A DNA stretch of 39,561 bases. Source: Oscillospiraceae bacterium (GTDB taxonomy: Bacteria > Bacillota > Clostridia > Oscillospirales > SIG519). The notes beneath the pieces are model-generated. The model was given only the letters and a program-made list of their open reading frames with translations. It had not been told where the DNA came from and made no database searches. This document shows, piece after piece, positions 5,015 through 33,319 of this stretch (its first letter is position 1; every line of letters begins with the position of its first letter). The stretch lies in the NCBI GenBank assembly GCA_015067255.1, contig SVMS01000020.1, forward strand, positions 1 to 39,561, read 5' to 3'. The translations under genes and the position numbers were made by a program.

Positions 5015-5082
5015 ATAAAAAGAGAACAAGGTATCTATTGATTTTACCTAAAAAGTTTTTAAAAAAGCAAAGGAGTGGCATT

Positions 5083-6693: not shown

Positions 6694-6703
6694 GGAAGAA
6701 AAA

Positions 6704-7978: not shown

Positions 7979-8007
7979 AATATATTTTAGATGGAGGTAT
8001 ATGGTAA

Positions 8008-11523: not shown

Positions 11524-11607
11524 AATTGCGCAAAGCGTATTAAAGCGTCTTATGAAAAAGAGCAAATATTGGAAACAATTAAAAATAAAAAACGGAGGAA
11601 AAAAAGA

Positions 11608-16398: not shown

Positions 16399-17535
16399 AT
16401 GAAAAGAATTTTTTCAATAATTCTTGTAGCTTTATTGGCTTTACAGGGCTTTACAGCTTTTGCGGCTGATTTCAAGCCTTCTTCATCAAATAACGTAAAT
16501 ATCCTTTGTAGCTTTGAGTCAGGAGATTGGATGCCTATGCTTCCCGACAATATGACATCTCTTGACCAGTATAACAATGCAAATTTTGAAAATAAAATCG
16601 TTTCCAAAAACGCTTATACAGGTTCAAAGTCCTTTGAAGCAAAATGTGTAAGCCCGGAGGGCGGTTATTCCACTTTTGAGTGGTATCAGATGGACGATGC
16701 TAAAACAAAGCATTTATATGTAAGAGACGGAAGAAATACAGACCTTATGGAGCTTTACAAAGCAGGCAAAGGCTTGAAGCTCAAGGATGCTGAATATTTA
16801 CAGTTTTATGTAAACAACCCTTCAAACTATCCCCTTTCTATTAAATGGCTTTCACTTTACGGCGAAGATTACTGGAGCTTAAAGGTTGCCGCAAAATACG
16901 TTACATATCTTGTTGACGGCGAGTGGGAAAGCTTAAGAGTTGCAAACGAAACTATTCCGGTTCCTGCAAAATATACAGGATTTATAAGAGTTGCTCTTAC
17001 AAAAGACAACTTTAAAAGCGGTAACTGGGACGGAAAGTCTCTCAAGCTTGACCTAATAACCGCTGTCGGCGCTTATTTGGACTCTCAGAACGGTCAGGAG
17101 GGCGCTACATTTTACATTGATGACGTTGCATTTGTAGGCAAAAACCTCAATGCAGGTATGAATACAAAGGTTGTTAAGGAAGATGAATACTTCAAGAATT
17201 TCTTAGGTACAACCGATGACACTCCTGCAAGCAAGCCCGTTTCATCAACAACATCATCTGAAAACAAGGATACTTCATCTGAAACAAACTCTTCAGATGC
17301 AATTTCTTCTGAAACAACAGATTCTTCGGATGCAATTTCTTCCGAGACAACAAGCTCAACTGAGCAGACAACCTCAAGCGAAGCAATAGAGTCTGATATT
17401 TCACAGGCAGGAAACAATGCATCGGAAGACAAGGGCGCTAATACACCTATTATTATAGTTGTTGTTATTATAATTGCGGCAGTAGTTATTGCAGGTGTAG
17501 CAGCTTTAATAATTGTTAAAACAAAGAAAAAATAA
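16399..17535 (+). CDS. Membrane-anchored glycan-binding-type protein
   Basis: A 378-residue protein with a signal peptide (about 1-23, ALQGFTAFAADF) and one beta-sandwich-type module (about 30-255). The module contains AEYLQFYVNNPSN, PAKYTGFIRVAL and TFYIDDVAFVGKNL, so it is a diverged relative of modules A and B. A Ser/Thr/Glu-rich linker follows (about 275-340, repeated SSETTDSSDAIS). A C-terminal transmembrane helix (about 347-373, TPIIIVVVIIIAAVVIAGVA) ends in positive charges (KTKKK). The arrangement presents a single binding module outside the membrane. No catalytic motif is visible. The ribosome site is weak and lies far from the ATG. Confidence 0.75.
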   Translation: MKRIFSIILVALLALQGFTAFAADFKPSSSNNVNILCSFESGDWMPMLPDNMTSLDQYNNANFENKIVSKNAYTGSKSFEAKCVSPEGGYSTFEWYQMDDAKTKHLYVRDGRNTDLMELYKAGKGLKLKDAEYLQFYVNNPSNYPLSIKWLSLYGEDYWSLKVAAKYVTYLVDGEWESLRVANETIPVPAKYTGFIRVALTKDNFKSGNWDGKSLKLDLITAVGAYLDSQNGQEGATFYIDDVAFVGKNLNAGMNTKVVKEDEYFKNFLGTTDDTPASKPVSSTTSSENKDTSSETNSSDAISSETTDSSDAISSETTSSTEQTTSSEAIESDISQAGNNASEDKGANTPIIIVVVIIIAAVVIAGVAALIIVKTKKK

Positions 17536-17562: not shown

Positions 17563-20500
17563 ATGAAAAAACGTCTTTCGATATCGGTTGCGTTGTGTAT
17601 GCTTCTCAGTATAGTTTTAACTCTTTTCGTTACAGTAGCACCTATTTCAGCAGCGTCAACCAATATTACAATTATCAATGACGGTACCTCTGACTTGTCA
17701 AAGCTTTACGGCGGCGACCCGAAAGAATGGTTACCAAGCGGTACCTTTGGTTATGCTCCTAACGGAGGACACGCTAACAGCGACAGCTATAAATATGAAA
17801 ACCCCGAATTTGTCAGAATAAGCGTTTACGATTCCGAAAGCTATTCTAACTGGACAAATGTAGATTATATTCAGATGTATGTATTTAATGACGGTACAAC
17901 TGAAACATATTTACAAATATATATGAAAAGCAATGCAGGAAGCTATGATGGCTTTGAAAGCTATTGCTTTTCCCCTGATGCTGTGGCTTATTTATCCTCT
18001 GACTGTGTGGATTGGTCAAGAGAGGCTGAATTCAAGTCTGAAGATATGTATACTGCGGCAACCTATGCAGGTAAGTACGGACATTTAATTATTCCCGCAG
18101 GCTTTAAGGGATATATAAGAATCCCTGCAACAAGTGAAACCTTATACAATGCAAAAGAGTGGGCTAACGATTACAATAACGCATATTCAAGCGCATTCTT
18201 GTGCGAAAATTTAGATTTTCAGTTCCACTTAGGCGCAAACACAAAGCTCACAGTTGATGATATTGCTCTTGTAGGCGAGGGGGTAGGTGCAAATTTCCCT
18301 GACTATACCTTTACAATGGATGAGTATATTGCAGGCGCTGTTATTCAGCACAGCCCCTATGCAAAAATGCCTGCACATACTCAGGTTTTACACACTGCTC
18401 TTGATTTTGAAAGCAACGTAACCATCAATTCATCACCCAACGACTTAAGTCTTTCCTTTGAACGTTCAACCGATTACAAGGCTACTGGAGATTACTCCTT
18501 AAAGGTTACAGATGGTGCTGATGAAACAGGTACAAGCTTTACTTCTCAGATAAGACCTTCTGCAATAGCAAGAGAGAATATTTCAAAGGCAGAATATTTT
18601 GAATTTTGGGTAAAGAACACATCAAGTGTTGATTACACAATAGTAAACCTTAAATTAAACAACATTCTCGTTGACGCTTCTGCAACTGAAATTACCCGTT
18701 TTGAAGCAGAGGGCTGGCTTAAGCTTAAGGATATGGTTATTCCTGCCGGCTATGAGGGTAAATTCAGAGTAGGCATAAACGGAAACTTTATAAACGTAGG
18801 TGCAAGGTCAAATAGATTGGAATTTTCTCTTAAAGAACAAACAGGTACAGGCGGAACATTATACTTTGATGATTTCTGCTTTGTTGCAGAATACTATCCT
18901 CCCGTAAAGGTTACAATGCCTGAGGGTATGGACAGAGTTGCTGTTATCGAGGACTTTGAAACGGGTATTTCCAATATAAAAAGCGGAATTAACTACATTA
19001 AGCTTGACTTTGCCTCCACCACAGATTTTGTTGACGAGGGAAGTAAGGCTATGAAGCTTACAACGCTTTCTCAGACAGGCGGTTCTGAACCTGTTACTCA
19101 GATTCAGTTTGTAAACGGAGGCGAGGCAAACGCTGAGGGCGCTAAATATCTTCAGTTCTGGGTTAAGAATACCTCTGCTGTTGAATTTGGTGTAACTTGG
19201 GTACAAATCAACGGAGAGCTGCTTAATGCTAAGCTTTATGAGATTTCTCTTTTCAAAGACGGAGATTGGTATCTTGTTAACAAATACAACAAGGCAGACG
19301 ATATTTTTGCAATTCCCGCAGGCTATGAGGGCCATATCAGAATAAAAATCGACGGTTCAGAAAACGGATATAAGGTTAAAAACGATTATATCGACAAATT
19401 CGAGCTTGCTATCTGGGAAGAAACAAGAACAGCAAATTCCGTTCTTTATATTGACGATTTCTGCACAGTAGGTACACCTCCTGCACCATATGTAAAAACA
19501 GAGGTTACAATGCCTGAGGGTATGGAAGTTGTTAAGGTTGTGCTTGATGCAGAGGATGTAAACATAAAATCAATCGGCAGCGGTATCAACTTTGTTCCTG
19601 TTAAATTCTCATTATACGAGGGCTTTGCAGGAGAAGGAAAATATTCCATCGAAATAAAGAATACGGGAGAAAGCGGCGGAAGTCCTGCTATTTCCGAATT
19701 CCAGCCTAAAGACAGCTTCCTTAACTGGACAGGCGCAAGATATTTCGAATTTAAGGTTACAAACCCCACAGAGTATGATTACGGTATTAGCTGGATTAAG
19801 ATTAACAATATAGCCTATAACCTTAAAAACACCGAAATTTCATATTCTGAAAACGGTAAGTGGTATAACGCTGAAAACAACAATTATCAGAACGGTATCA
19901 AGATATACCCCGGATATGAGGGCTATATCAGAGTTAAGCTTACAGGAATAGAGAATGAAATAGAGGACTTTTCAGTAGTAAACGGCTTTATGTTCGGTGT
20001 ATATCAGAAAAACAGAACAGAAGGTCTTGCTATTTACGTAGACGATTTCAGAGTAATCGGCTATATGGATGAGCATACAGAGCCTGAAGACAATCTTCAG
20101 CCCTATACAGAATTCCCTGTTGATGAGGTTATTGAAAAGATTGAAAAAGGCAAAACAGAAATTACCTGTTATCTCCTTTCAAACGGCACTATTCCAGAAA
20201 AGGTAATAGCTGCAATAAAAGGTAAAGATATAAATCTTAACGTAGGCGTATTCAACGAGGCAGGAAGAACTCTTTATCAGGTAAGACTTAACGGATTGAA
20301 TATAACAGAGGAAGCTGATTACGTTTTAGGCACTGAAATCGGCGAGGTTAAAACTGACGGAGAAGCACTTATTCTCCCTGTTAAATTGCCCGAAAACAAA
20401 AATAAGGCTGATATTGCCGTAAATGTTTTAGGCATATATCCCGCGCAATCCAACCTTTTCTTCTATAAGGAAAAGGGAGAAAGCGCTGTAATGTGTGAAT

Positions 20501-20739
20501 ACGACAGAGAAACAGAAAGCACAGGCTTTGTTGTTATCAACGAATCACAAAGCGGAAGCTATTTCCTCTCCGATGTTATACTTGATAAATATGACAATGA
20601 CATTATTCCACAGGGCGATATTACAAGTCCAGACACTTCTGACAGACAGGGAATGATGGCAAAATTCTATATTTTTTCGGCATTCTTATCAGTTATTTCA
20701 ATAACAGTTATTCTTAAGAGAAGGAGACTTGTTAAATGA
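17563..20739 (+). CDS. Surface-anchored multi-module glycan-binding protein: A-B-B-B
   Basis: A 1058-residue protein with a signal peptide (about 1-31, ending PISAAST). It has one A module (about 33-255), three B modules (about 275-443, 460-638, 653-835), a further domain (about 850-1015) and a C-terminal anchor. The B modules repeat MPEGMxxVxV(I/L)xDxE as a start and (L/A)Y(I/V/F)DDF as an end. The end of the protein has SPDTSD, a hydrophobic stretch and KRRRLVK, like a degenerate sortase signal or a simple C-terminal membrane anchor. No catalytic motif was found. AAGGAG precedes the ATG. The stop codon overlaps the start of the next gene by 4 nt (ATGA), so translation is probably coupled to that binding protein. 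Confidence 0.8.
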   Translation: MKKRLSISVALCMLLSIVLTLFVTVAPISAASTNITIINDGTSDLSKLYGGDPKEWLPSGTFGYAPNGGHANSDSYKYENPEFVRISVYDSESYSNWTNVDYIQMYVFNDGTTETYLQIYMKSNAGSYDGFESYCFSPDAVAYLSSDCVDWSREAEFKSEDMYTAATYAGKYGHLIIPAGFKGYIRIPATSETLYNAKEWANDYNNAYSSAFLCENLDFQFHLGANTKLTVDDIALVGEGVGANFPDYTFTMDEYIAGAVIQHSPYAKMPAHTQVLHTALDFESNVTINSSPNDLSLSFERSTDYKATGDYSLKVTDGADETGTSFTSQIRPSAIARENISKAEYFEFWVKNTSSVDYTIVNLKLNNILVDASATEITRFEAEGWLKLKDMVIPAGYEGKFRVGINGNFINVGARSNRLEFSLKEQTGTGGTLYFDDFCFVAEYYPPVKVTMPEGMDRVAVIEDFETGISNIKSGINYIKLDFASTTDFVDEGSKAMKLTTLSQTGGSEPVTQIQFVNGGEANAEGAKYLQFWVKNTSAVEFGVTWVQINGELLNAKLYEISLFKDGDWYLVNKYNKADDIFAIPAGYEGHIRIKIDGSENGYKVKNDYIDKFELAIWEETRTANSVLYIDDFCTVGTPPAPYVKTEVTMPEGMEVVKVVLDAEDVNIKSIGSGINFVPVKFSLYEGFAGEGKYSIEIKNTGESGGSPAISEFQPKDSFLNWTGARYFEFKVTNPTEYDYGISWIKINNIAYNLKNTEISYSENGKWYNAENNNYQNGIKIYPGYEGYIRVKLTGIENEIEDFSVVNGFMFGVYQKNRTEGLAIYVDDFRVIGYMDEHTEPEDNLQPYTEFPVDEVIEKIEKGKTEITCYLLSNGTIPEKVIAAIKGKDINLNVGVFNEAGRTLYQVRLNGLNITEEADYVLGTEIGEVKTDGEALILPVKLPENKNKADIAVNVLGIYPAQSNLFFYKEKGESAVMCEYDRETESTGFVVINESQSGSYFLSDVILDKYDNDIIPQGDITSPDTSDRQGMMAKFYIFSAFLSVISITVILKRRRLVK
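18385..20065 (+). repeat. Three tandem B modules
   Basis: Units run approximately 18385-18890, 18940-19475 and 19520-20065. Shared features are SGINY(I)/SGINF(V), (K/R)Y(L/F)(Q/E)F.V.N, EIS/EIT followed by G.WY or GWLKL, (I)PAGYEG or YPGYEGYIR, and a final DDF. They match the two B modules at 13075-14165. Confidence 0.75.
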
Positions 20740-22106
20740 AAAGAATAATAAGCATAATTATTTGTCTTATAATGGTGCTTTCTGTATTGTGCGGCTGTGG
20801 AAACACAGCCGACACAAACAATCCTGCTGACAGCGACGGAAAAGATTTAGGCGGCAGAACCTTTAAAATTATGGTTAACGGTTGGAATATTCCCGACCTT
20901 AAGGATGAAAAGGATTCCTTTGCGCAGACAGCAAAAAAATTCGGCTGTAATTTCGAATTTATAGAGTTTTCAGACGAAATTGCAACATATAACAATCTCG
21001 TTATGAGCTATCTCGCAGGTACAGCTGACTACGATGCTCTTGTTATGAGAGGCTACAATGTATGTCCTCTTTATTCTGCATCGGGCGTTATTCTCAATAT
21101 GAGCAAACACTATGATTTTAAAACTGACAAAACCTGGTCTAATCCCCTTGTTTCTTCCGTAGGCGTATGGAGGGGCGACAGATACGGTCTTCCCGTACAT
21201 CCCGTTGAAACAGGCTATGCAATCTGGTATAACAAGAGTATGTTAAGTCAGGCTAATATTCCTGATTTATGGGAATATGTAGAAAACAACACCTGGACCT
21301 TTGAAACCTTCAGAGAGGTTTGTAAAAAGCTTACTCAGGTTAAAAACGGTAAGACCACAGTTTACGGCTTTGCAGGAGAAGAAATTTTCAGCTCCTTTAT
21401 GCTTGCAAACGGCGGTACATTCATTGACATCAACGGCGAAAAGGCTCAGCTTAAAATATCAGAAGACGCAAATATAAACGCTATGCAGTATGTGCTTGAC
21501 CTTTACAACGTTGATAAGTCCATTCCCTCCAAGGCTTTGATTGAGGAATGGGGCAACCCCTCTGTGCTTGATATGTTCTCCACAGGCAAGGTTGCTATGA
21601 CAGCTTACGGTGTATGGGCAGGCCCTGCTTTCCAGAATGCAGGTATGAAGCCTGAAAATCTCGGCTGGATTTACTTCCCCAAGGGTGAAGATGCAACCGA
21701 CTATGTTGTTCCCGGACTTACACCCCCAAGAACAATGGTTGTTCCCTCTCTTGCAAAAAATCCCGAAGATATAGTGGCAGTTCTTGCAGATGCTTTGGGC
21801 TATTGGGGAGAAACAAAGGAATACCCCAAAACAATCGAGAGCTATTATGATGAAGTATTGGAAAATGACCAGATGCTTGATATCCTTGTAGGTAATAATA
21901 AAAAATGCTACATCGAGGGTGCGGCTCTTACAAAATACACCAATCTTTACAATTATGAGGGCATTCTTAACGTATACGGAGAAATGACAGATAAGCTTCT
22001 TGCAAATGAGCTTACTCCTAAAGCCGCAGTAGAAAGCTACTCTTCAAAAATTCAAAGCAAAATTGATGTTATTGAAAACGGAATCAATCTGGAAGATTAC
22101 GAATAA
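20736..22106 (+). CDS. Carbohydrate ABC transporter solute-binding lipoprotein (family 1)
   Basis: A 456-residue lipoprotein with signal MKRIISIIICLIMVLSVLCGCG and lipobox LCGC. The length and pattern (YGLPVHPVETGYAIWYNKSML, DYDALVMRGYN, NTWTFETFREVCKKL, FSTGKVAMTAYGVWAG) match family 1 extracellular sugar-binding proteins. It should bind oligosaccharides outside the membrane and deliver them to the MalF/MalG-type permeases downstream. Its ATG overlaps the upstream surface-protein stop codon, which suggests coordinated amounts. A strong hairpin follows the gene. A second, much larger binding protein comes next, so either two substrates are used or the two proteins act in sequence. Confidence 0.9.
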   Translation: MKRIISIIICLIMVLSVLCGCGNTADTNNPADSDGKDLGGRTFKIMVNGWNIPDLKDEKDSFAQTAKKFGCNFEFIEFSDEIATYNNLVMSYLAGTADYDALVMRGYNVCPLYSASGVILNMSKHYDFKTDKTWSNPLVSSVGVWRGDRYGLPVHPVETGYAIWYNKSMLSQANIPDLWEYVENNTWTFETFREVCKKLTQVKNGKTTVYGFAGEEIFSSFMLANGGTFIDINGEKAQLKISEDANINAMQYVLDLYNVDKSIPSKALIEEWGNPSVLDMFSTGKVAMTAYGVWAGPAFQNAGMKPENLGWIYFPKGEDATDYVVPGLTPPRTMVVPSLAKNPEDIVAVLADALGYWGETKEYPKTIESYYDEVLENDQMLDILVGNNKKCYIEGAALTKYTNLYNYEGILNVYGEMTDKLLANELTPKAAVESYSSKIQSKIDVIENGINLEDYE

Positions 22107-22179: not shown

Positions 22180-25008
22180 ATGAAAAAAATTATAGCATTT
22201 CTTGTCATTATAAGTATAATGTTGGGCAACTTAATTATTGCTTCATCAGAGGAAGATACTACACTGTCTTCCTCCAATGTCGCATCCGATTATTCAGAAT
22301 ATAAGGTGCAAAATGCACAGGTGAATAAAGCAACCGAAGAAATAGTTATCAAAGCTATGGAGTTTTCCTCATACGAAGGAACACAGCCGCAGGCAGACGG
22401 AGAGATTCTTTATATTCCCGACGGATGTACTGTGAAATATAAGCTTAACATTGTAGAGGCGGGAATGTATAATTTGGCGCTTTGCTATGCTGCTGCCGAG
22501 GGAAAAGGACTGACCATTGAAAGAGGAATAAAAATCAACGGAAAGGTCCCCTTTGATTCGGCGGCAAGTATAGGTCTTTGCAGAATTTTTGCGGATGCAG
22601 AGAGTTTTAAAAAAGAAGGCAACGAATACCGTCCGCAGCAAAAAGAACAAGAAGTTTTTGCTGAAAGATATGTTACAGGCAGCGGAATTGAAAGTGATAC
22701 CGTTTTTGAGTTTAATTTTGAAAGCGGAGAAAACGAATTAGAGCTTACATATCTTTCGGAGCCTATGAAGCTTAAATATATAAAGCTTTGCCGTAAGGAG
22801 CAGGTACCTTCTTACAGCGAATACCTTTCTGCCAATTCAAATAACACCGCAAAGGCAAGCGGAGAAATCAAATTTCAGGCAGAGGATACGTATCTTAAAT
22901 CAGATGCAAGCTTATTCCCTCTTTCAGACCGTTCATCTGCGGCTAACGAGCCTATAAGCACAGTTTATACAAAGCTTAATTCAATCGGCGGAGAAAATTG
23001 GAGTATCCCTAAGCAGTGGATAAGCTGGAAATTTACTGTAAAAGAGGACGGCTGGTATAATCTCGGAATGAGATTAAGGCAGAATTTCAATTCAGGAACA
23101 GTTTCTAACAGAAGCCTTTATATTGACGGACAGCTTCCTTTTGCAGAGTGTGAGGAAATATCAGTTAAACACAGCCGTCAATGGCAGATGTTTACTCCTA
23201 AAAATGATGAAGGAAGCTATAAGTTTTATTTGACAGCAGGGGAACATACCATTACTCTTTACAATTCAATAGGTATTCTTTCCGACGTTATAAACAGAAC
23301 AAATGACTCTATGACGCTTCTTTCAAGCGTCTACAGACAAGTAATGATGATAACCGGGCCCAGCCCAGATGCATACAGAGATTATAAGATTGATAAAATA
23401 CTGCCCTCTGCAATGACAGCCTTTGAAGAGCAGTCAAAAGAACTGAGAGCTGTCTGTGAAGAGTTAGAGGGTATTGCAGGCAGAAGTAGTACAGGCTATG
23501 CATCAATACAAAAGCTTTTAATTCAGCTTGAAAGCTTTTTAGAAAAGCCCTCTTCTATTCCTGCAAGGCTTGACTCCTTCCGTTCAAATATAAGCGATGT
23601 TTCTTCCTGGGTGCTTGAATGTATAAATCAGCCCCTTTTGATAGATTATTTTGTATTTGAGCCGGTCGGACAAGAAATGCCTAAGGCAAACAGCGGCTTT
23701 TTCAAAAACCTTGTGTTTGGAATAGAGCAGTTTATTCAATCCTTTGTAAATGACTATAATAATATTTCTTTTACTGATTCAGAAGATATTTCCGAAAGTA
23801 TTACTCTTTGGATGGGAGCAACAGTAGCGGCAACAAGCGGCGCAAATGTCATAGGAAGCGGTCGAGACCAGGCTACAGCCTTGAAAAATTTAACTGACAG
23901 TTATTTTATACCGCAGAAAAAGATAAATGTTAACGTGCGTCTTGTTGATATGGCTTCCTTGCTTCCTGCGGTAGCATCGGGTATGGGTCCTGATGTTGCC
24001 ATAGGACAGGACAGAGCAAATCCTATGAATTATGCATACAGAGGCGCTCTTGTAAATCTTTCGGAGTTTGACGATATTAAAGAGGCAACCTCAGACTTTT
24101 TCCCTGAAGCACTCACCTCCTTCAGATACGGCGATGAAATATATGCACTTCCTGAAACCTTTGCATTTTCTCTTATGTTTTACAGGACAGATGTTCTTTC
24201 AGAGCTTGGAATAGAGGTTCCTAAAACTTGGGATGAGCTATATACAATAATTCCCAAGCTTTCAAATAAATATATGACAGTTGGTTTGCCCCTCTTATCT
24301 ACTGACAGCATAGAGCTTTTCCTTGCTCTTTTATATCAAAAGGGCGGAGAGGTTTATGATAAAGGGTATACCAAAACATTACTTGACAGCGAGGTTTCAA
24401 TTGAAGCCTTTAACGAATGGACAGATTTTTATACAAAATACGGGGTTGACCAAAAGGTTGACCTTCTCACAAGATTCAGAACAGGTGAAAGTCCCATTGT
24501 AATTACCCAGTACAGCTTTTACAATCAAATAGTTGCGACTGCTCCCGAGCTTATGGGAAAATGGGATGTAACAGGAGTTCCGGGATATGATGTAAATGAC
24601 AATTGTGTTTACGGAACGGGTACGGGAGCAGTTATATTTAAAAATTCCAAGAAAAAAGAAGAGGCTTGGGAATTTTTGAAATGGTGGACAAACGCTGATA
24701 TTCAGGTTGCTTTCAATCAGGAGCTGGAGGCAATTTTAGGTGAGTCTGCAAGAATTCCGACAGCCAATGCAAAGGCTCTTGAAAGACTTCCCTGGAATTC
24801 AAAAATGTTAAACGTAATTAAAAAGCAGTCTGAAAATGCAAAGGGCCTTCCCGAAGTGCCCGGAAGCTATCTTACAACAAGATATCTTTCAATGGCGGCA
24901 AGGCTTGTAATAAATAACGGTGTAATGGCAAGAGATTCTATAATGAGCTATGCTTTACAGATAAATGACGAGATTGATTCAATGAGAAAAGAATTCGGAC
25001 TTGATTAA
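22180..25008 (+). CDS. Extra-large solute-binding protein with N-terminal binding-type domains
   Basis: A 942-residue protein, about twice the usual length for a sugar-binding protein. An N-terminal signal segment (about 1-24) lacks a lipobox cysteine. Residues about 55-210 and 225-410 look like two beta-sandwich carbohydrate-binding-type domains (YKLNIVEAGMYNLALCYA with FNFESGENELELTYL; WKFTVKEDGWYNLGMRL with YLTAGEHTITLYNS). A helical stretch (about 420-500) follows. The C-terminal part (about 545-940) is a family 1 binding fold (GSGRDQATALKNL, MGPDVAIGQDRANPMNYAYRGALVNLSEF, YALPETFAFSLMFYRTDVL, PKTWDELYTII). It directly precedes the first permease pair and is probably their binding protein. 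It may be tethered by an uncleaved signal. Confidence 0.8.
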   Translation: MKKIIAFLVIISIMLGNLIIASSEEDTTLSSSNVASDYSEYKVQNAQVNKATEEIVIKAMEFSSYEGTQPQADGEILYIPDGCTVKYKLNIVEAGMYNLALCYAAAEGKGLTIERGIKINGKVPFDSAASIGLCRIFADAESFKKEGNEYRPQQKEQEVFAERYVTGSGIESDTVFEFNFESGENELELTYLSEPMKLKYIKLCRKEQVPSYSEYLSANSNNTAKASGEIKFQAEDTYLKSDASLFPLSDRSSAANEPISTVYTKLNSIGGENWSIPKQWISWKFTVKEDGWYNLGMRLRQNFNSGTVSNRSLYIDGQLPFAECEEISVKHSRQWQMFTPKNDEGSYKFYLTAGEHTITLYNSIGILSDVINRTNDSMTLLSSVYRQVMMITGPSPDAYRDYKIDKILPSAMTAFEEQSKELRAVCEELEGIAGRSSTGYASIQKLLIQLESFLEKPSSIPARLDSFRSNISDVSSWVLECINQPLLIDYFVFEPVGQEMPKANSGFFKNLVFGIEQFIQSFVNDYNNISFTDSEDISESITLWMGATVAATSGANVIGSGRDQATALKNLTDSYFIPQKKINVNVRLVDMASLLPAVASGMGPDVAIGQDRANPMNYAYRGALVNLSEFDDIKEATSDFFPEALTSFRYGDEIYALPETFAFSLMFYRTDVLSELGIEVPKTWDELYTIIPKLSNKYMTVGLPLLSTDSIELFLALLYQKGGEVYDKGYTKTLLDSEVSIEAFNEWTDFYTKYGVDQKVDLLTRFRTGESPIVITQYSFYNQIVATAPELMGKWDVTGVPGYDVNDNCVYGTGTGAVIFKNSKKKEEAWEFLKWWTNADIQVAFNQELEAILGESARIPTANAKALERLPWNSKMLNVIKKQSENAKGLPEVPGSYLTTRYLSMAARLVINNGVMARDSIMSYALQINDEIDSMRKEFGLD

Positions 25009-25025: not shown

Positions 25026-25946
25026 GTGGTACGCAATCCTATACGCGACAGAGCGTCAGCTTTACTTCAAGAAATATATAAAAAAAGAGTATCCTATCTT
25101 ATGATGGCTCCTTTCCTTATCATATTCTTTTTGTTTACTGTATGGCCTGTAATATATTCATTGGGTATGAGCTTTACAAGCTTCAATGTATTTGAGCCCG
25201 CAAAGTTTGTCGGAATGGATAATTATGTAAAGCTGTTCTTTAAAGACGATTTGTTTTTGACAGCTATGCAAAACACAATACTGTTTGCTCTTATAACAGG
25301 ACCTGTAAGCTATATAATGTGTCTTTTCTTTGCATGGGTTGTAAATGAGCTTGAAGGCTCTATGCGTGCAATAATGACAACTATTTTATACGCTCCCTCA
25401 ATAGCGGGAAACGTATTTATAATATGGCTTGTTGTATTTGACGGAGATATATACGGATATCTCAACAGCTTTCTTTTACAGCTTGGGTTTATTGATGAGC
25501 CTATACAATGGCTTCAAGACCCTACCCATATGATGTGGATAGTAATATTGGTTCAGCTATGGATAAGCCTTGGAACCTCCTTTCTTACCCTGAGAGCAGG
25601 CTTTAATACTATTGATAAATCATACTATGAAGCGGCAGCGGTGGACGGAATGAAAAACCGTTGGCAAGAGCTGTGGTATGTTACTCTTCCTATGATGGCA
25701 CCTCATCTTATGCTTTCAGCTGTGCTTTCTATAACTGCAGCCTTTGGCTCAGGACACGTGGCACAGATTTTATGCGGTATTCCCAGTACAAACTATGCTA
25801 CATATTTACTTATACATCATCTGCAGGATTTTGGTACAGTACGATATCAGAGAGGATATGCGGCGGCTATTGCTACCGTACTCTTCCTTATGTCCGTAAT
25901 TGCCAATACCCTTGCAAAAAAATTCATAAGAAGGGTTGGAAAATAA
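25026..25946 (+). CDS. Carbohydrate ABC transporter permease, MalF type
   Basis: A 306-residue inner-membrane permease with about six transmembrane helices. The EAA loop that contacts the ATPase is visible as YYEAAAVDGMKNRWQELWYVTLP. The N-terminus RVSYLMMAPFLIIFFLFTVWPVIYSLGMSF is typical of the MalF/UgpA-type subfamily. The GTG start at 25026 is preceded by GAAAGGGG, 17 bp after the upstream stop. It should form a heterodimer with the next gene product, whose ATG directly follows its stop codon. No ATPase gene is in the locus, so a shared MsiK-like ATPase encoded elsewhere is expected. Confidence 0.93.
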   Translation: MVRNPIRDRASALLQEIYKKRVSYLMMAPFLIIFFLFTVWPVIYSLGMSFTSFNVFEPAKFVGMDNYVKLFFKDDLFLTAMQNTILFALITGPVSYIMCLFFAWVVNELEGSMRAIMTTILYAPSIAGNVFIIWLVVFDGDIYGYLNSFLLQLGFIDEPIQWLQDPTHMMWIVILVQLWISLGTSFLTLRAGFNTIDKSYYEAAAVDGMKNRWQELWYVTLPMMAPHLMLSAVLSITAAFGSGHVAQILCGIPSTNYATYLLIHHLQDFGTVRYQRGYAAAIATVLFLMSVIANTLAKKFIRRVGK

Positions 25947-26837
25947 ATGAAAGCATCACATAAGCGTATACTTAAAAAAATATTTTCCAACAAAGCAAAA
26001 AAGGTAAACAGAAGTAAAACGGGAAATCTTTTTATATTTATCGTTTTGCTTGTCTTTGGTCTTTACAGTGCGCTTCCTCTTATATTGGCTGTACTGCAAT
26101 CAATAAAGCCTTTAAACGAGCTGTTTTTATATCCCCCGAGATTTTGGGTTGAATCGCCCACAGTCGATAACTATTTTTCCCTTGTGGATTTAATGACAAC
26201 CAGCTGGGTTCCTTTTTCAAGATATACTTTCAATACAATTCTTATATCTGTTGTAGGAACTGTCGGGCATATAATAATTGCTGCGATGTGTGCATATCCT
26301 CTGGCTAAAAATAAGGTGCCGGGTGAAAAAATCATTTTCGGAATAATAGTATATTCCCTTATGATTCAGCCTACAGTTGCAGATATAGCAAATTATCAGA
26401 CAATGGCGTCTCTCAATTTTCTTGACAGCTATTGGGCAGTAATAATTCCTGCCTTTGGCTCAAGCCTCGGTCTTTATATTATGAAAAATTTTATCAGCGT
26501 TCTTCCTGATTCTATACTTGAAGCAGCAAGAATAGACGGTGCTGGCGAATTTAAAATATTCTGGCGTATAGTTATGCCAAATGCAAAGCCCGGATGGCTG
26601 ACTCTTGCAATATTCTCATTCCAAGGCTTGTGGAACGGAACAAACTCGACGTATATTTACAGCGAGGAGCTTAAAACCTTGCCCTATGCGTTAAATCAGA
26701 TTATCGCAGGCGGTATAACAAGAGCCGGAGCAGGTGCTGCTGTTGCTGTTGTTATGATGATTGTTCCTATTATCTTCTTTATTTTAACCCAAAGCAATAT
26801 TATGGAAACGATGGCATCCTCCGGAATGAAGGATTAA
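25947..26837 (+). CDS. Carbohydrate ABC transporter permease, MalG type
   Basis: A 296-residue permease with a short basic cytosolic N-terminus and about six transmembrane segments. The EAA loop is SILEAARIDGAGEFKIFWRIVMPNAKPGW, read in two parts as EAARIDGAGEFKIFW and RIVMPNAKP. It is the partner of the preceding MalF-type protein; the two genes abut without a gap. Together with the large binding protein they form the first import system of the locus. The substrate is probably an oligosaccharide released by the surface enzymes, which is inference from context. Confidence 0.93.
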   Translation: MKASHKRILKKIFSNKAKKVNRSKTGNLFIFIVLLVFGLYSALPLILAVLQSIKPLNELFLYPPRFWVESPTVDNYFSLVDLMTTSWVPFSRYTFNTILISVVGTVGHIIIAAMCAYPLAKNKVPGEKIIFGIIVYSLMIQPTVADIANYQTMASLNFLDSYWAVIIPAFGSSLGLYIMKNFISVLPDSILEAARIDGAGEFKIFWRIVMPNAKPGWLTLAIFSFQGLWNGTNSTYIYSEELKTLPYALNQIIAGGITRAGAGAAVAVVMMIVPIIFFILTQSNIMETMASSGMKD

Positions 26838-26871
26838 TATTTTTTCAACATTTATGAAAGGAGAAAACGGT

Positions 26872-28302
26872 GTGAAAAAAATTATATCTTTAATTGTTGT
26901 GTTGCTTGTTTTTGCTTCCTTTGGCATCAGTGCAACAACAAGCTATACATATTCAACTTATTCCGGAAGCACTACAACTGTACCTTGTCCCGATCCGTTT
27001 CTGCCTGAAAAAGTATATACAATGAGGAATACAGGCGTTAGCCTCAAAGCGCCGAAGGATATTTGCTTTGATAAAATCGGGAATATATATGTTCTTGATT
27101 CAGAAGCTGAAAAAATATATATTTTTGATGCAGATATGAAGCATACAACAACTGTGGACGGCTTTATTAAAGACGGAGAAAAGCAAAGCTTTGCAAAGCC
27201 GCAGGGTATGTTTGTTACCTCGGACGGACAAATTTATATTTGTGATACACAAAACAAAAGAGTGGTCTGGCTCAATTCGGATTTTACTTTTAATAAAGAA
27301 TATTTATGTCCTAAATCAGATGTTTTAGAAAGCGATTATAGGTTTTTGCCTAAAAAAATAACTGTTGATAACGCTAACAATCTTTATATTATAAATTCTG
27401 ATGAATATCAGGGGATTATGCAGATAGATGAAGCGGGAAATTTTATTGCTTTTGTAGGAAGCGATAAGGTTAAATACGACCCTATTACGCTTATGTGGAA
27501 GAAAATAATGTCTGAAAAGCAGGCAGAACAGCTTACACAGTTTATTCCCGTTGAATATTTCAATCTTTCCATTGATAATGAAGGCTTTATTTATGCTGTT
27601 TCCGCTGCAACGGGCGAGGAGCCTATAAAAAGGCTTAACACCTCGGGAAGCGATATACTCAACAGATACGGATATGTTAAAATATGCGGAGATATAAACG
27701 TTTCAAACGACGCTTCTTTTCAGGCTTCGCTTTTTACCGATATAGATTCAAACGAAAACGGTAATTACTTTGCTATTGATTCTGTAAGATGCAAAATATT
27801 TACATATAACAGGGACGGATATTTGCTTTATGTATATGACGCAAGCGACGTTATTACAGCCCCTGCTGCTCTTGCGGTAAATAACGATAAGCTGTACGTT
27901 ACCGATTTATATGACGGAAGCATTGTTTCTTTTTCATTTTCTAAGTTTGGAAAAACAGCTATTGATGCAGATAATATGTATTCAAAGGGAATGTTTGAGG
28001 AGAGCTTTGAAAATTGGGAAAATGTTTTAAAAATGAATGCCAATTATGAGCTTGCATATGCACAGCTGGGAAGAATATACTTGCGAAACGGCGAATATGA
28101 AAAGGCAATGGACAATTTCTTAAAGGGAAATATAAAGGGAAGCAGTGTTACCAAGCTTGACGGTTATAACAAAGCCTTCAGCGAGTGGCGTAAACAATGG
28201 GCTATGGATAATTTAGGTAAAGCCTTTGTTATTATTTTGGTGCTTGTGCTTGCCTATTATATCGTTAAGATAATACTTAAACGGAGGAGGAAAAATAAAT
28301 GA
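26872..28302 (+). CDS. NHL-repeat and TPR protein with C-terminal membrane helix
   Basis: A 476-residue protein. I chose GTG at 26872 because AAAGGAG precedes it and a signal peptide (MKKIISLIVVLLVFASFGIS) starts there; an upstream in-frame ATG at 26854 lies inside the ribosome site. Residues about 65-345 have NHL/beta-propeller repeats (APKDICFDKIGNIYVLDS, KPQGMFVTSDGQIYICDT, PKKITVDNANNLYIINSD). A TPR-like pair of helices follows at about 365-425 (MYSKGMFEESFENWENVLK, LAYAQLGRIYLRNGEYEKAM). A membrane helix (about 447-467) and a basic tail end the protein. The propeller should face outward. Its function is unknown; it overlaps the next membrane-protein gene by 4 nt (ATGA). It may be an accessory or scaffold of the transporter. 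Confidence 0.8.
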   Translation: MKKIISLIVVLLVFASFGISATTSYTYSTYSGSTTTVPCPDPFLPEKVYTMRNTGVSLKAPKDICFDKIGNIYVLDSEAEKIYIFDADMKHTTTVDGFIKDGEKQSFAKPQGMFVTSDGQIYICDTQNKRVVWLNSDFTFNKEYLCPKSDVLESDYRFLPKKITVDNANNLYIINSDEYQGIMQIDEAGNFIAFVGSDKVKYDPITLMWKKIMSEKQAEQLTQFIPVEYFNLSIDNEGFIYAVSAATGEEPIKRLNTSGSDILNRYGYVKICGDINVSNDASFQASLFTDIDSNENGNYFAIDSVRCKIFTYNRDGYLLYVYDASDVITAPAALAVNNDKLYVTDLYDGSIVSFSFSKFGKTAIDADNMYSKGMFEESFENWENVLKMNANYELAYAQLGRIYLRNGEYEKAMDNFLKGNIKGSSVTKLDGYNKAFSEWRKQWAMDNLGKAFVIILVLVLAYYIVKIILKRRRKNK

Positions 28303-28919
28303 TAGCAGATATTAAATTTGCATTTCACGTAATTTCTCATCCGTTTGACGGCTTTTGGGATATGAAGCACGAGAAAAAGGGGAAAATGTGGGTTGCAATT
28401 GTTTGCATAATCCTTTTTGCAATTGCCAATTTTATAAGTGCTGAATTTTCCAGCTTTTTATTTAACGATACAAAATTCAAGCTTGCAGATATTCTTTTTG
28501 AGTTTGAAAAGGTAGGCATATTGCTGATTGTTGTTTGTCTTGCAAATTGGTCAGTTACGACCTTGATGGAAGGCGAAGGCACTTTTAAAGATATATTTAT
28601 GACCTTTGGTTATGCCTGCTTGCCTGTAAGTATTATAACAATACCCGCAACAATACTTACAAATGTTGCATCGTACAGTGAAGGCGTATATATAAATATA
28701 CTTAATTACGGTGCGATGGTCTGGTTTATAGCACTGCTGTTTTTCGGACTGATGACGGTTCATCAATATTCTCTCGGAAAGATGGTATTGACTACTATAC
28801 TTACAATAGTTGCTGCGGCAGTAATAATTTTTGTATATTTGTTGTTCTTTAGCTTAATTACCCGTATGTTTACATTCTTTGCAACAATTTTCAAAGAACT
28901 GTCATTTAGATTAAAATAG
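28299..28919 (+). CDS. Yip1-family-like integral membrane protein
   Basis: A 206-residue protein with about five hydrophobic segments (for example WVAIVCIILFAIANFISA, GILLIVVCLANWSVTTLM, TIPATILTNVASY, WFIALLFFGLMTVHQYSLG, ILTIVAAAVIIFVYLLFF). The pattern and length fit bacterial YIP1-family proteins (five-helix membrane proteins of unclear role). It is translationally coupled to the NHL-repeat protein and followed 17 bp later by the large lipoprotein. Together these three genes separate the two permease pairs, suggesting a shared role in import or envelope organisation. The biochemical function is unknown. Confidence 0.7.
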   Translation: MIADIKFAFHVISHPFDGFWDMKHEKKGKMWVAIVCIILFAIANFISAEFSSFLFNDTKFKLADILFEFEKVGILLIVVCLANWSVTTLMEGEGTFKDIFMTFGYACLPVSIITIPATILTNVASYSEGVYINILNYGAMVWFIALLFFGLMTVHQYSLGKMVLTTILTIVAAAVIIFVYLLFFSLITRMFTFFATIFKELSFRLK

Positions 28920-28936
28920 ATAGGAATGGTCGCCGA

Positions 28937-31459
28937 ATGAAGAAAATCAGGTTTTTCGTTGCGCTTATACTTATAACCTCTATTATAAGCGGATGCGGAC
29001 GGCAGGCAGAGCAATATGAAGCTGTAAAAAAAGAAAATTTCATATATTCCGAATATACATCAGTTCCTAAAGTAGAGTATCAGCCGACAGCAGAACAGGC
29101 TGCGCTGCTTGAGGGCTATAAGCTTTTTTACGATAATGGGATATTAGCTCTTTATTGCGTACAGGAAAACGGCAATATCGCACTTATCGACAAGCGTTCG
29201 GGAGAGCTTTATTTTAATACATCTGTGTCAGCTGACAGCGACAGCATTGCAACGCAGGAAACAAAGATGTTTTTAAAATCAGCGCTTATAATAAACTATT
29301 TTGATAAGCAAACAGAGAAGACAGCTACAAGCTATGAGCTGTCGGTACAAAAAGACGGAGTCAAGACTGAAGCTGTCGATGGGGGCGTTAAGGTAATCTA
29401 TACCTTCGGAGACGGAGTACGTGATATTACCGATATTCCGCAAAAGCTTTCCGAAAAAAGATTTGAAGAGCTTTTTGTAAATCATCCGGCCCTTCTTGAA
29501 AACGATAAAAAGCGTGCAAAAATATATTATAAATATAGTGAAACGGAAAAAGCATATGTTTTATCTGACACTAAAAACACAACTATAAACTTACTTTCTC
29601 AAATTCTTGAAAGAATAAGCTATACAGATGAGGACTTAAAAAAAGACAATGAGGAAAACGGCTTAAAAACTGTTGCTTCACAGCGTCTTTATTTTGAAAT
29701 CCCCGTTTACTATACTCTTGAAAACGAAAGCATGAGGGTTAATATCCCTATGGATGAGGTTAAATATACCGAGTCCAAGCCCTTGCTGAGAATTACACTT
29801 AACAAATATTTCGGAGCAACCTCACAAACAGAGGGTGCGATGCTTGTACCCTATGAAAGCGGAGGTCTTTTGTTCTTCTCTGCTTCGGCGAATGATACAG
29901 GGGAATACAGTACCTCGCTTTACGGAAGCAACGATACAGATGCAGGAAAAGTAAGCAATAAAGCGGATAACAACAATTCTCTTGCTCTTTTCGGAATGTA
30001 TAAAAAAGACAGCGGATTTATAGGAATTATAGAAAACGGTGATGCTCTTTGCACCGTTTCTGCTGAAAAAGCAAATACTAAATCCTCACTCAATTCAGTA
30101 TGGGCTGATTTTCAGGTACGTAATTACATAACAGCGGTATTGGGAGACGGCGGCTTACAGTCCGATGTTAAGGTAGTTCAGAAAGAAATGTACAAGGGAG
30201 ACATATGCGTAAAATACAGCTTTGTTTCTAAAGAAGATATATCCTATGGGGATTTGGCTTCTTATTATCGTGGCTATGCTGCTAAAAAATATTCTCTCAC
30301 TCAAAAGAAAAACGATTCTGTACCTCTTACTGTTACAGCAGTAGGCTCTATAAGAGAGGATAAAAGCCTGTTTGGCTTTAAATACAACGGCGTAACAGCT
30401 CTTACAAGCTATTCGGGCGCAAAGTCTATGCTTGAATATCTGAATAGCCAAAGCATAAATAATATAAAAATGATTTTATCGGGAGCTTTAAAGGGCGGTC
30501 TTGAAAATGAGAGCATAAGTAAGCTGAAGCTTGAAAATAAGCTCGGAAAAAGCTCTGTGCTTTCAGATATAGCAAATAGTTCGGGCGTTGAGCTTTTGAT
30601 AAGCATTGATGCTTTAAGCGTTCCCAAGGATGCATCAGGTTTTAACCGTTATAACGATACCGCCCAAACAATAGATAAAAGTATTGCTAAAAAATATTCT
30701 TATGATATTGTAACTATGAAAAACGATGGCTACAGATATCTTATTTCTCCTTTAAAATACAGCAGCTTTACCAATGATTTAGTTAAATTCTTAGGAAAGT
30801 CATATTTTGAAGGAATAAGCTTTACCGATTTAGGTACAAAGCTATATTCTCATAATGCTGATGATGTGGTAATTACAAGGCAGGACGCAAAGAATATTTC
30901 TCTTGCACAGCTTGAAAAATATTCACAAAGCGGAGAGCTTGTGCTTTCAAACCCATATGAAGCTGCACTGCAGTATGCAGATGCGGTTATAAATCTGACA
31001 AGCTCAATAAACAAGAATATAGATGAGCAAATTCCCTTTTATCAGATGGTTTATCACTCTCTTGTTGATTACAGCGGTACCCCTATAAATGAGGCATCGG
31101 ATATACAAGAGGCTGTTTTAAGATGTCTTGAAAGAGGAGAAAATCCTTATTTCAGAGTTTTCTCATCAGAATTTAACAGTGCTGCAAATACTGATTTTTC
31201 ATATCTTTATTGTAACGGCTTTGAAGTTTTAAAGCAAGAAATTGCAGACATATATAAAACCATAGATTCTGTTTTGTCTGAGGTTTCGGGAATGTATATA
31301 ACAGGACACGAAAAAATTAAAGACGGTTTCTATAAAACAATCTATGGCGATAAAATAGCTATATATGTTAATTACAACGATAATGATGAGCAGTATAATG
31401 AAATTACAGTTAAAGCAAACAGCTACGAAAAAGAGGTGTTAAGCGTTGAAGAAAAATAG
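28937..31459 (+). CDS. Large lipoprotein resembling DUF5696 proteins
   Basis: An 840-residue lipoprotein with signal MKKIRFFVALILITSIISGCG (lipobox ISGC). The N-terminal half is beta-rich with (N)IALIDKRSGELYFN. The region about 460-720 alternates strands and helices (VTAVGSIREDKSLFGF, GVTALTSYSGAKSMLEYL, FEGISFTDLGTKLYSHN, LSNPYEAALQYADAVINL) and could be a TIM-barrel-like fold. By length and position beside sugar permeases, an NHL-repeat protein and a Yip1-like protein it resembles DUF5696-type proteins; that assignment is from memory of similar loci and needs a profile search. It may be an extracellular glycan-acting or substrate-handling protein. The end overlaps the next permease start by 14 nt. 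Confidence 0.65.
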   Translation: MKKIRFFVALILITSIISGCGRQAEQYEAVKKENFIYSEYTSVPKVEYQPTAEQAALLEGYKLFYDNGILALYCVQENGNIALIDKRSGELYFNTSVSADSDSIATQETKMFLKSALIINYFDKQTEKTATSYELSVQKDGVKTEAVDGGVKVIYTFGDGVRDITDIPQKLSEKRFEELFVNHPALLENDKKRAKIYYKYSETEKAYVLSDTKNTTINLLSQILERISYTDEDLKKDNEENGLKTVASQRLYFEIPVYYTLENESMRVNIPMDEVKYTESKPLLRITLNKYFGATSQTEGAMLVPYESGGLLFFSASANDTGEYSTSLYGSNDTDAGKVSNKADNNNSLALFGMYKKDSGFIGIIENGDALCTVSAEKANTKSSLNSVWADFQVRNYITAVLGDGGLQSDVKVVQKEMYKGDICVKYSFVSKEDISYGDLASYYRGYAAKKYSLTQKKNDSVPLTVTAVGSIREDKSLFGFKYNGVTALTSYSGAKSMLEYLNSQSINNIKMILSGALKGGLENESISKLKLENKLGKSSVLSDIANSSGVELLISIDALSVPKDASGFNRYNDTAQTIDKSIAKKYSYDIVTMKNDGYRYLISPLKYSSFTNDLVKFLGKSYFEGISFTDLGTKLYSHNADDVVITRQDAKNISLAQLEKYSQSGELVLSNPYEAALQYADAVINLTSSINKNIDEQIPFYQMVYHSLVDYSGTPINEASDIQEAVLRCLERGENPYFRVFSSEFNSAANTDFSYLYCNGFEVLKQEIADIYKTIDSVLSEVSGMYITGHEKIKDGFYKTIYGDKIAIYVNYNDNDEQYNEITVKANSYEKEVLSVEEK

Positions 31460-32354
31460 AATGACTCAAGAGAGAAAAAGGTCGCTTCAGGCTTACATAT
31501 ATCTTGCACCGTGGCTTGTCGGTGTGCTTATGTTTTTCATTTATGCAATTATTCAGACTACGGTGTATAGCTTTCAGACCGTTGAAAAATCAACGCTCAG
31601 CTTTTCCTTTGTAGGAATTTCCAATTTCAGATATGCTTTTCAAGGCGATGCAGAGTTTCCGCAGCTTTTGTTAAGCTCATTGATAACAATGCTTTCTAAT
31701 GTGCCTACAGTGTTGATTTTTGCTTTCTTTGTTGCGCTTTTGTTAAAGAAACGCTTCAAGGGCGATTTTATGATAAAAGCAATTTTCTTCTTAACCGTAA
31801 TTTTGTCTTCAGATGTTTTTTTAAATATGATGAGTGATACAAGCTCTCTTACTGCGGCGCAGGAAAATGCTGTTGTGGCAGATGGAGGAAGCTTTTTTTC
31901 GGCAATGGAATCCTTTGAGCTTGGCGAGTATTTTACAGAGTTTGGAATAGACCCTGCTTTTTTTGAATTTATAAGCGATGCTATTGAAGGTCTTTCTGAA
32001 ATAATGGTTAAGTCCGGAATACCTATTTTCATCTTTTTGGCAGGGCTGTATTCAGTACCTGAATCAATGTATGAGGCAGCAAACGTTGAGGGAGCAACAG
32101 CGTGGGAAAGCTTTTGGAAAATCACCCTTCCCCTTATGGGTCCCGTATTGCTTGTTAATATTGTTTATACAATAGTGGATTCCTTCTCATCTTATCTTAA
32201 TCCGACACTTGACTATATTTATGATCAAGGAATACAGAAATTCAATATCGGTTATGCTTCGGCATTATCTTGGATTTATTTTATTATAATAGGAATAATT
32301 TTAGGCGTTGTTGTTTTCTTTGTTAACAGAAAAATCTATTATCAGGGGGGTTAA
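31446..32354 (+). CDS. Second carbohydrate ABC permease, MalF type, with extracytoplasmic insertion
   Basis: A 302-residue permease starting at TTG 31446 with GAGGTG seven bases upstream; it overlaps the lipoprotein gene by 14 nt. The N-terminus LQAYIYLAPWLVGVLMFFIYAIIQTTVYSF is MalF-like. The EAA loop is MYEAANVEGATAWESFWKITLP. A hydrophilic insertion at about 125-185 (SDTSSLTAAQENAVVADGG ... FISDAIEGLSEIMVKSG) lengthens an extracytoplasmic loop compared with the usual family form. This loop could contact the lipoprotein or binding protein. It pairs with the following MalG-type permease. No dedicated binding protein or ATPase lies next to this pair. Confidence 0.9.
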   Translation: MKKNRMTQERKRSLQAYIYLAPWLVGVLMFFIYAIIQTTVYSFQTVEKSTLSFSFVGISNFRYAFQGDAEFPQLLLSSLITMLSNVPTVLIFAFFVALLLKKRFKGDFMIKAIFFLTVILSSDVFLNMMSDTSSLTAAQENAVVADGGSFFSAMESFELGEYFTEFGIDPAFFEFISDAIEGLSEIMVKSGIPIFIFLAGLYSVPESMYEAANVEGATAWESFWKITLPLMGPVLLVNIVYTIVDSFSSYLNPTLDYIYDQGIQKFNIGYASALSWIYFIIIGIILGVVVFFVNRKIYYQGG

Positions 32355-32356
32355 AA

Positions 32357-33319
32357 ATGAATAGCTCTTTACTTAAATTAAAAGCATTAAAAATCAGCAA
32401 AAAAGCTGTTGGTATAATTCTCAGGATAATATTTTTAAGCGGATTTTGTTTTGTCATACTTTACCCTGTAATATTGATGATTTCAAGAGGCTTTATGTCC
32501 AGAGTTGACCTTATGGACAATGAGGTAATTCTTATTTTTAAGAATTTTACTCTTGAAAATTTCAAGGTCGCTTCAATGCTGTTGGATTATGGGACATCAT
32601 TTAAAAATACTATTATTATAACACTTGGCTGTACGCTTTTTTCGCTTATTGCATCTTTGCTGGCAGGATATGCCTTCGGAAGATATAATTTTAAGCTGAA
32701 GCCTGTTTTATTCGGTATATTGCTCTTCACAATAATTGTACCGCCTCAGCTTATTATGATGCCACTTTATATGAAATTTAAAAGCTTTGATATTTTAGGA
32801 ATAATAGAGCTTATAAACGGCTCTCCTGCAAATCTTCTTAACAGCTTTGCACCCTTTTTCATTCTCTCTATAACGGGAATGGGAATAAAAAGCGGTATAT
32901 TTATATATTTGTTCAGACAGTTTTTTGCAGGTATGCCAAGAGAAATTGAGGAAGCAGCTATGGTTGACGGCGCAGGCTCCTTCAGAATTTTTGCTACTCT
33001 GATGGTGCCTAACGCAAAAACAATTATAGTAATGGTAATACTTTTCTCAATCGTATGGCAATATAACGACGTAGTTTATTCACAGCTGTTTTTAACTACA
33101 CAAAAGGTTCTTTCGATGCAGTATGTCAATTTAGAGCGTTTTACGCAGGAAGTGCTTGAATTCTTGGAAATGGCAAACGGCGACATTATGGTAGGTATGT
33201 ATGTTCCGCTTGTTAAAAGTGCGGGAGCTCTTATTATACTCGCACCCATAATAATAATGTTTCTTGTTGCTCAGAAATTCTTTGTAGAAAGCATAGAACG
33301 TTCCGGAATAGTAGGATAA
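32357..33319 (+). CDS. Second carbohydrate ABC permease, MalG type
   Basis: A 320-residue permease beginning 2 bp after the previous stop. It has the MalG-type N-terminal helix (IILRIIFLSGFCFVILYPVI), LAGYAFGRYNFK and PPQLIMMPLYMKF. The EAA loop is EIEEAAMVDGAGSFRIFATLMVPN. It is the partner of the preceding permease and forms the second transmembrane pair of the locus. It is somewhat longer than the first MalG-type protein, with additional sequence near NGSPANLLNSFAPF and near the C-terminus. The substrate is inferred only from the locus. Confidence 0.92.
   Translation: MNSSLLKLKALKISKKAVGIILRIIFLSGFCFVILYPVILMISRGFMSRVDLMDNEVILIFKNFTLENFKVASMLLDYGTSFKNTIIITLGCTLFSLIASLLAGYAFGRYNFKLKPVLFGILLFTIIVPPQLIMMPLYMKFKSFDILGIIELINGSPANLLNSFAPFFILSITGMGIKSGIFIYLFRQFFAGMPREIEEAAMVDGAGSFRIFATLMVPNAKTIIVMVILFSIVWQYNDVVYSQLFLTTQKVLSMQYVNLERFTQEVLEFLEMANGDIMVGMYVPLVKSAGALIILAPIIIMFLVAQKFFVESIERSGIVG

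Follow-up and report, generated by a model that had tools for sequence, protein, structure and literature searches.

The genes for an NHL-repeat protein (N), a Yip1-domain membrane protein (Y) and a DUF5696 protein (D), found side by side in an Oscillospiraceae genome, are well supported as an obligate accessory set of a particular type of CUT1 ABC importer, in which they stand between two permease pairs. On balance we lean, if only slightly, towards the reading that the three proteins form a complex that is an obligate extracytoplasmic accessory of a CUT1-type glycan importer, with D serving mostly as a non-catalytic glycan-binding subunit.

The stretch of DNA analyzed (39,561 nucleotides, hereafter the window) contains one copy of the module, whose genes run head to tail in the order S1-A1-A2-N-Y-D-B1-B2 and whose permeases are of the CUT1 type. 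With an additional small binding protein gene, the features are as follows:

20736..22106 (+): s, second, small solute-binding protein, an optional part of the module (Pfam SBP_bac_1)
22180..25008 (+): S1, large solute-binding protein (Pfam SBP_bac_1)
25026..25946 (+): A1, MalF/UgpA-type permease of pair A (PF00528, UgpA-like, EAA coupling loop conserved)
25947..26837 (+): A2, MalG/UgpE-type permease of pair A (PF00528, EAA loop)
26872..28302 (+): N, signal segment, NHL propeller, TPR and one C-terminal transmembrane (TM) helix (Pfam)
28299..28919 (+): Y, Yip1-domain membrane protein with five TM segments (PF04893)
28937..31459 (+): D, DUF5696 lipoprotein with a GH129-like fold (PF18952, structural model and fold comparison)
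31446..32354 (+): B1, MalF/UgpA-type permease of pair B (PF00528, EAA loop)
32357..33319 (+): B2, MalG/UgpE-type permease of pair B (PF00528, EAA loop)

An initial annotation of this DNA had described N, Y and D as overlapping or nearly touching membrane-associated genes set between permease pairs, and its description of the locus withstands re-examination. All three are present on the forward strand exactly where it placed them; N and Y share 4 nt (ATGA at 28299-28302, comprising the N stop and the Y start), Y and D are 17 nt apart, and the 3' end of D overlaps B1 by 14 nt (31446-31459), the start codon of B1 being a TTG within D. Permease pairs flank the trio on both sides (25026-26837 and 31446-33319), and a membrane location is predicted for each member based on a signal segment and TM helix in N, the five TM segments of Y, and a signal segment and lipobox in D. 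The longest open reading frame (ORF) of N begins at 26854; we prefer the GTG at 26872 as its start because a good ribosome-binding site (AAAGGAG) lies just 5' of it. Scans of the window found terminator-like sites only at noise level, and promoter-like sites that exceeded those in shuffled sequences but were uninformative.

Failure of the arrangement to recur in other genomes would have refuted the idea of a linked accessory module. A neighborhood survey of a class sample (293 genomes) and a phylum sample (398 genomes) found it in both Clostridia and Bacilli, with named carriers including Paenibacillus, Cohnella, Lederbergia, Halalkalibacter, Thermobacillus, Acetivibrio alkalicellulosi, Lachnospiraceae and Oscillospiraceae. 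The gene order is uninterrupted in 138 of 163 DUF5696 loci, a set that includes 80 named loci picked for closeness to one D alignment. Nineteen of the other 25 end at the boundary of a contig or fetched stretch, and six are real or apparent variants, comprising a broken Yip1 gene (L013), a relocated B pair (L014), an interrupted D (L049), a displaced A2 (L079 and L080) and an absent B2 (L122). In the interrupted case (G031, L049:5532-10926), two reverse-strand ORFs of 263 and 498 aa lie inside D and are probably a mobile element. Another genome (G161, L122:2483-8074 and L120) has no recognized B2 in pair B and instead a very large ORF (1864 or 1611 aa) after B1.

Co-inheritance of N and D is nearly complete in the class sample, where full-length D was found in 65 of the 293 genomes and N in 63, every one of which also carries full-length D. 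In the two genomes with D and no N, D lies at a contig end or on a short contig. Almost all N genes (88/89) have a D no more than 6 kb away on the same contig; the single exception and a D are on separate contigs, the D starting at base 7 of its own. The associated Fisher p value of 2e-62 takes no account of relatedness and is not to be read at face value. A near-full N match was found in about 42 of the 398 phylum genomes, the rest of the 58 being short generic NHL matches. Median intergenic distances are -4 nt from N to Y and 0 from D to B1. When distance matrices are compared, correlations among N, D, B1 and B2 are 0.88-0.92, against 0.78-0.80 for N and D versus A1; in the absence of a species-tree control this is no more than a hint that the trio has closer ties with pair B than with pair A.

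The genome containing the window has six DUF5696 genes, five of them within a full set of S1, A1, A2, N, Y, D, B1 and B2 and the sixth cut by a contig end. One of the five copies has pair B upstream of S1 (L014), and another (L013; G000:C14) has a broken Yip1 gene at 10503-11137, comprising two ORFs of 113 and 87 aa, for which a frameshift, a pseudogene or an assembly error are alternative explanations. Pairwise identities among the copies are 0.20-0.28 for D, 0.26-0.34 for N and 0.38-0.52 for A1, that is, the copies are old paralogs (20-52% identical). All five Yip1 matches in the genome lie inside module copies, as do 22 of its 29 PF00528 matches; the other seven comprise one further CUT1 pair and permeases that are of polyamine, amino-acid or sulfonate type or unassigned, so that modules account for 11 of the 12 CUT1 (sugar) permease pairs of this organism. 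Because the arrangement recurs both in such divergent paralogs and in many other genomes, its recurrence is far beyond chance.

N contains NHL repeats (PF01436, Pfam 4.4e-12) and a weak TPR match, and an AlphaFold2 model of a fused N homolog (pLDDT 86.7) matches solved NHL propellers with E values down to 4e-16, so that N can be classified as an NHL-repeat beta-propeller protein on both grounds. In 83 of 110 N homologs the side after the TM helix is the more positively charged, and the propeller and TPR are therefore predicted most likely to be extracytoplasmic. Y matches Yip1 (PF04893; 1.3e-15, 58.1 bits against a cut-off of 28.6) over positions 1-172 of 173 and, with about the number of TM segments expected, qualifies as a member of that family. 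The two proteins are a single polypeptide in 37 of the 81 class loci with N, where a separate Yip1 gene is absent and N is about 700 residues long, compared with about 490 when split; one more fusion among the named loci (L204) brings the surveyed total to 38. Of 29 fused proteins scanned with Pfam, 28 were confirmed to contain Yip1, which is C-terminal in the two shown. N proteins of 701-702 aa at two loci (L156 and L177) were rejected as fusions and relabeled as split, as a separate Yip1 gene follows each. The fused or split state changes 11 times when mapped on a tree of the N ectodomain, and at least six of these changes are forced by well-supported branches; as this was a quick tree with long branches, the counts are approximate. 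Repeated fusion of this kind is classical evidence that N and Y work together. Together with the conserved order and the constant presence of D alongside N, it upholds the proposal of a linked accessory module.

D belongs to DUF5696 (PF18952; 1e-141, 473.8 bits against a curated cut-off of 25.6), the match spanning positions 2-612 of 612. Its designation as a lipoprotein is appropriate for the window copy, in which a signal segment and an ISGC lipobox can be read from the sequence, but does not extend to the family as a whole, since a lipobox is found in only 43 of 163 D homologs. GH129 enzymes are the best structural match to an AlphaFold2 model of the window D (pLDDT 89.4; Foldseek 1.8e-31; VIA-align Z 29.7, rmsd 4.1 and 573 residues aligned, with the next fold group at ~20) and are also found at the sequence level by a profile of the D alignment (hmmsearch, E 1e-18). 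D thus shares with GH129, represented by the alpha-N-acetylgalactosaminidase NagBb and the 3,6-anhydro-D-galactosidase ZgGH129, both detectable homology and a fold extending over nearly its whole length, as a member of that family should, but differs in its N-terminal membrane anchor, its ABC operon context and its mostly lost acid/base Glu. We take D435 and E478 of NagBb to be the catalytic Asp nucleophile and Glu acid/base of GH129, and located the corresponding positions by alignment with solo DUF5696 proteins encoded outside the module. The window D has D631 at the nucleophile position and S671 at the acid/base position and consequently lacks the catalytic pair; because the pair is incomplete, we file D as GH129-like rather than GH129.

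Among 163 module D proteins, 102, including that of the window, retain the Asp and 11 retain both carboxylates, and some of the 11 may be active judging from these residues. Combined with the fold and profile match, this leaves room for D being an active membrane-anchored exo-glycosidase, divergent but GH129-like, that trims oligosaccharides before import while N and Y hold it by the permeases. We regard such a role as unlikely, given that the acid/base Glu is present in only 18 of the 163 and is replaced by Ser in the window, whereas the solo relatives retain both residues without exception (12/12). Owing to the lost carboxylates, most module D proteins are instead predicted not to hydrolyze substrates by the usual mechanism, and the retained fold suggests, as an inference, glycan binding. 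A ligand other than a glycan, or an alternative acid/base residue, might also be possible. The solo DUF5696-type proteins (L123, L124, L125 and L213-L221; 561-619 aa), having both GH129 catalytic residues, are themselves likely to be active glycosidases, with DUF5696 as the main Pfam family to which they are assigned. Weak DUF5696 matches in other genomes (about 18-23 bits, around positions 260-430) are possibly distant TIM barrels.

The remaining subunits are those of a CUT1 importer. Both flanking pairs match BPD_transp_1 (PF00528) in Pfam and can be assigned as CUT1 permease pairs, two per module, and the E, G and P of the EAA loop are largely conserved in an alignment across all four permeases, which makes pairs A and B both look able to work with an ATPase. 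A degenerate loop in B1, indicated by a strict regular expression, was rejected on the strength of this alignment, in which the loop is largely intact. In B1 (31446-32354) the third and fourth hydrophobic segments are separated by about 60 residues, a longer stretch than in A1 and possibly an extracytoplasmic docking loop. S1 and s both match SBP_bac_1, as CUT1 binding proteins should; S1 has a carbohydrate-binding-like N-terminal region and a C-terminal binding protein domain (residues 581-842), and homologs of s precede S1 in Bacilli or follow B2 in Clostridia. With s present, the locus could also represent two separate importers instead of one assembly. No MalK-type ATPase is encoded in the operon; one was found in the genome (G000:C7), above the UgpC model cut-off, so an ATPase of the MalK/MsmX type is available at the genome level. 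Encoding the ATPase elsewhere is common to the module and to MsmX-type CUT1 importers, among which multitask ATPases serving several importers are established (PMC7658222), and we infer that this single UgpC-like protein serves all module permeases.

A simple lipobox pattern is found in only 9 of 143 S1 proteins versus 117 of 133 small binding proteins, suggesting that S1 may be held by another anchor, for which N, Y and D are a candidate. TPR and Yip1-type proteins have assembly or trafficking roles elsewhere, and the trio could accordingly be pictured as assembly factors, with N and Y (and D) folding, inserting or anchoring the permeases and the apparently non-lipidated S1 but playing no part in transport itself. 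This strikes us as quite improbable, as it leaves the conserved glycosidase-like fold of D unexplained and ordinary CUT1 importers have no need of such factors.

Permease pairs, solute-binding proteins and neighboring glycoside hydrolases bear out the sugar-import setting envisaged by the initial annotation, with a role in uptake only inferred. Carbohydrate is suggested as the transported substrate solely by the neighboring glycosidases, transport itself again being an inference. Modules of this genome neighbor genes for GH106 (in the window and at L014), GH31, GH2 and a GH78-type rhamnosidase, and those of other genomes neighbor GH10, GH26, GH9, GH5, GH130, GH3 and sulfatases, a variety suggesting that a single import platform has been adapted to several glycans. 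At 5038-16329, adjoining the GH106 gene, the window encodes large proteins, several of which have ricin-type lectin domains; one of them (11569-16329, 1586 aa) has a weak dockerin match, and another (5038-6693), recovered as a binding protein by our own profile (8e-7), was rejected as a Ser-rich sequence with a lectin domain. Directly 5' of the module are two genes (16399-17535, 378 aa; 17563-20739, 1058 aa) whose products match nothing in Pfam at E 0.01.

Next after the window locus comes a gene for an AraC-type regulator, and AraC-type genes are also among the flanking genes elsewhere; propellers and degenerate enzymes are, moreover, common sensor domains. N, Y and D might on these grounds be a glycan sensor, Yip1 signaling inward to control the expression or activity of the permeases. 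We see little likelihood of this, because Pfam found no kinase, response-regulator or anti-sigma domain in any of the three proteins and because the trio is nearly always within the permease operon, whereas the flanking genes vary.

Returning to the accessory complex that we favor, we envisage that N would display its propeller and TPR outside the cell, its TM helix holding it to Y, which would reside in the membrane beside the permeases, while D, anchored by its N-terminus, would contribute a non-catalytic glycan-binding subunit. The resulting scaffold would dock S1 and long oligosaccharides above the permeases, and the module copies, all presumably powered by one multitask MalK/UgpC-type ATPase encoded elsewhere, would differ by the glycan served. 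Gene order and co-inheritance show shared function rather than physical contact, there being no interaction, expression or uptake data; linkage of the genes is observed, and the existence of one complex, glycan binding by D and the transported substrate are inferred.

In its textbook form, an ABC sugar importer has two permeases, one ATPase and one binding protein. The module resembles CUT1 importers such as MalEFGK, UgpBAEC and the MsmX-dependent systems of Bacillus in its MalF/MalG-type pairs with EAA loops and its SBP_bac_1 protein, but differs from them in having two permease pairs per operon, three extra conserved membrane-associated subunits and an S1 of 900-1100 residues in which CBM_35 is detectable in 10 of 30 homologs. 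Sus-like systems of Bacteroidetes bring together surface glycan-binding proteins, a transporter and glycosidases in one locus. The module is comparable to these by analogy only, as it lacks the SusC and SusD families and is Gram-positive and ABC-driven, and no homology is claimed. A bolder proposal, tentative at best, is a Gram-positive counterpart of Sus in which N, Y and D would bridge the two permease pairs in one membrane supercomplex and, together with S1 and a retired glycosidase acting as a glycan clamp, would feed long plant oligosaccharides into two ABC channels with a shared ATPase, forming the main sugar platform of some bacteria.

We found no paper on DUF5696 in the open literature that could be searched, and the candidate papers examined there mention neither NHL nor Yip1. 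A module combining NHL, Yip1 and solute-binding proteins with polysaccharide utilization appears undescribed in the searchable open literature, most subscription papers being outside the scope of the search. Each family is known, and the combination of N, Y and D with permeases is provisionally new. The near invariance of the trio in a widespread eight-gene Bacillota operon suggests a larger, undescribed machine for plant-glycan uptake in many gut and soil bacteria. Bacillota would thus possess a widespread type of importer in which three additional subunits are conserved, including a degenerate glycosidase. This offers a testable role for DUF5696 and bacterial Yip1 proteins and bears on the competition for plant glycans among gut and soil members of the phylum.
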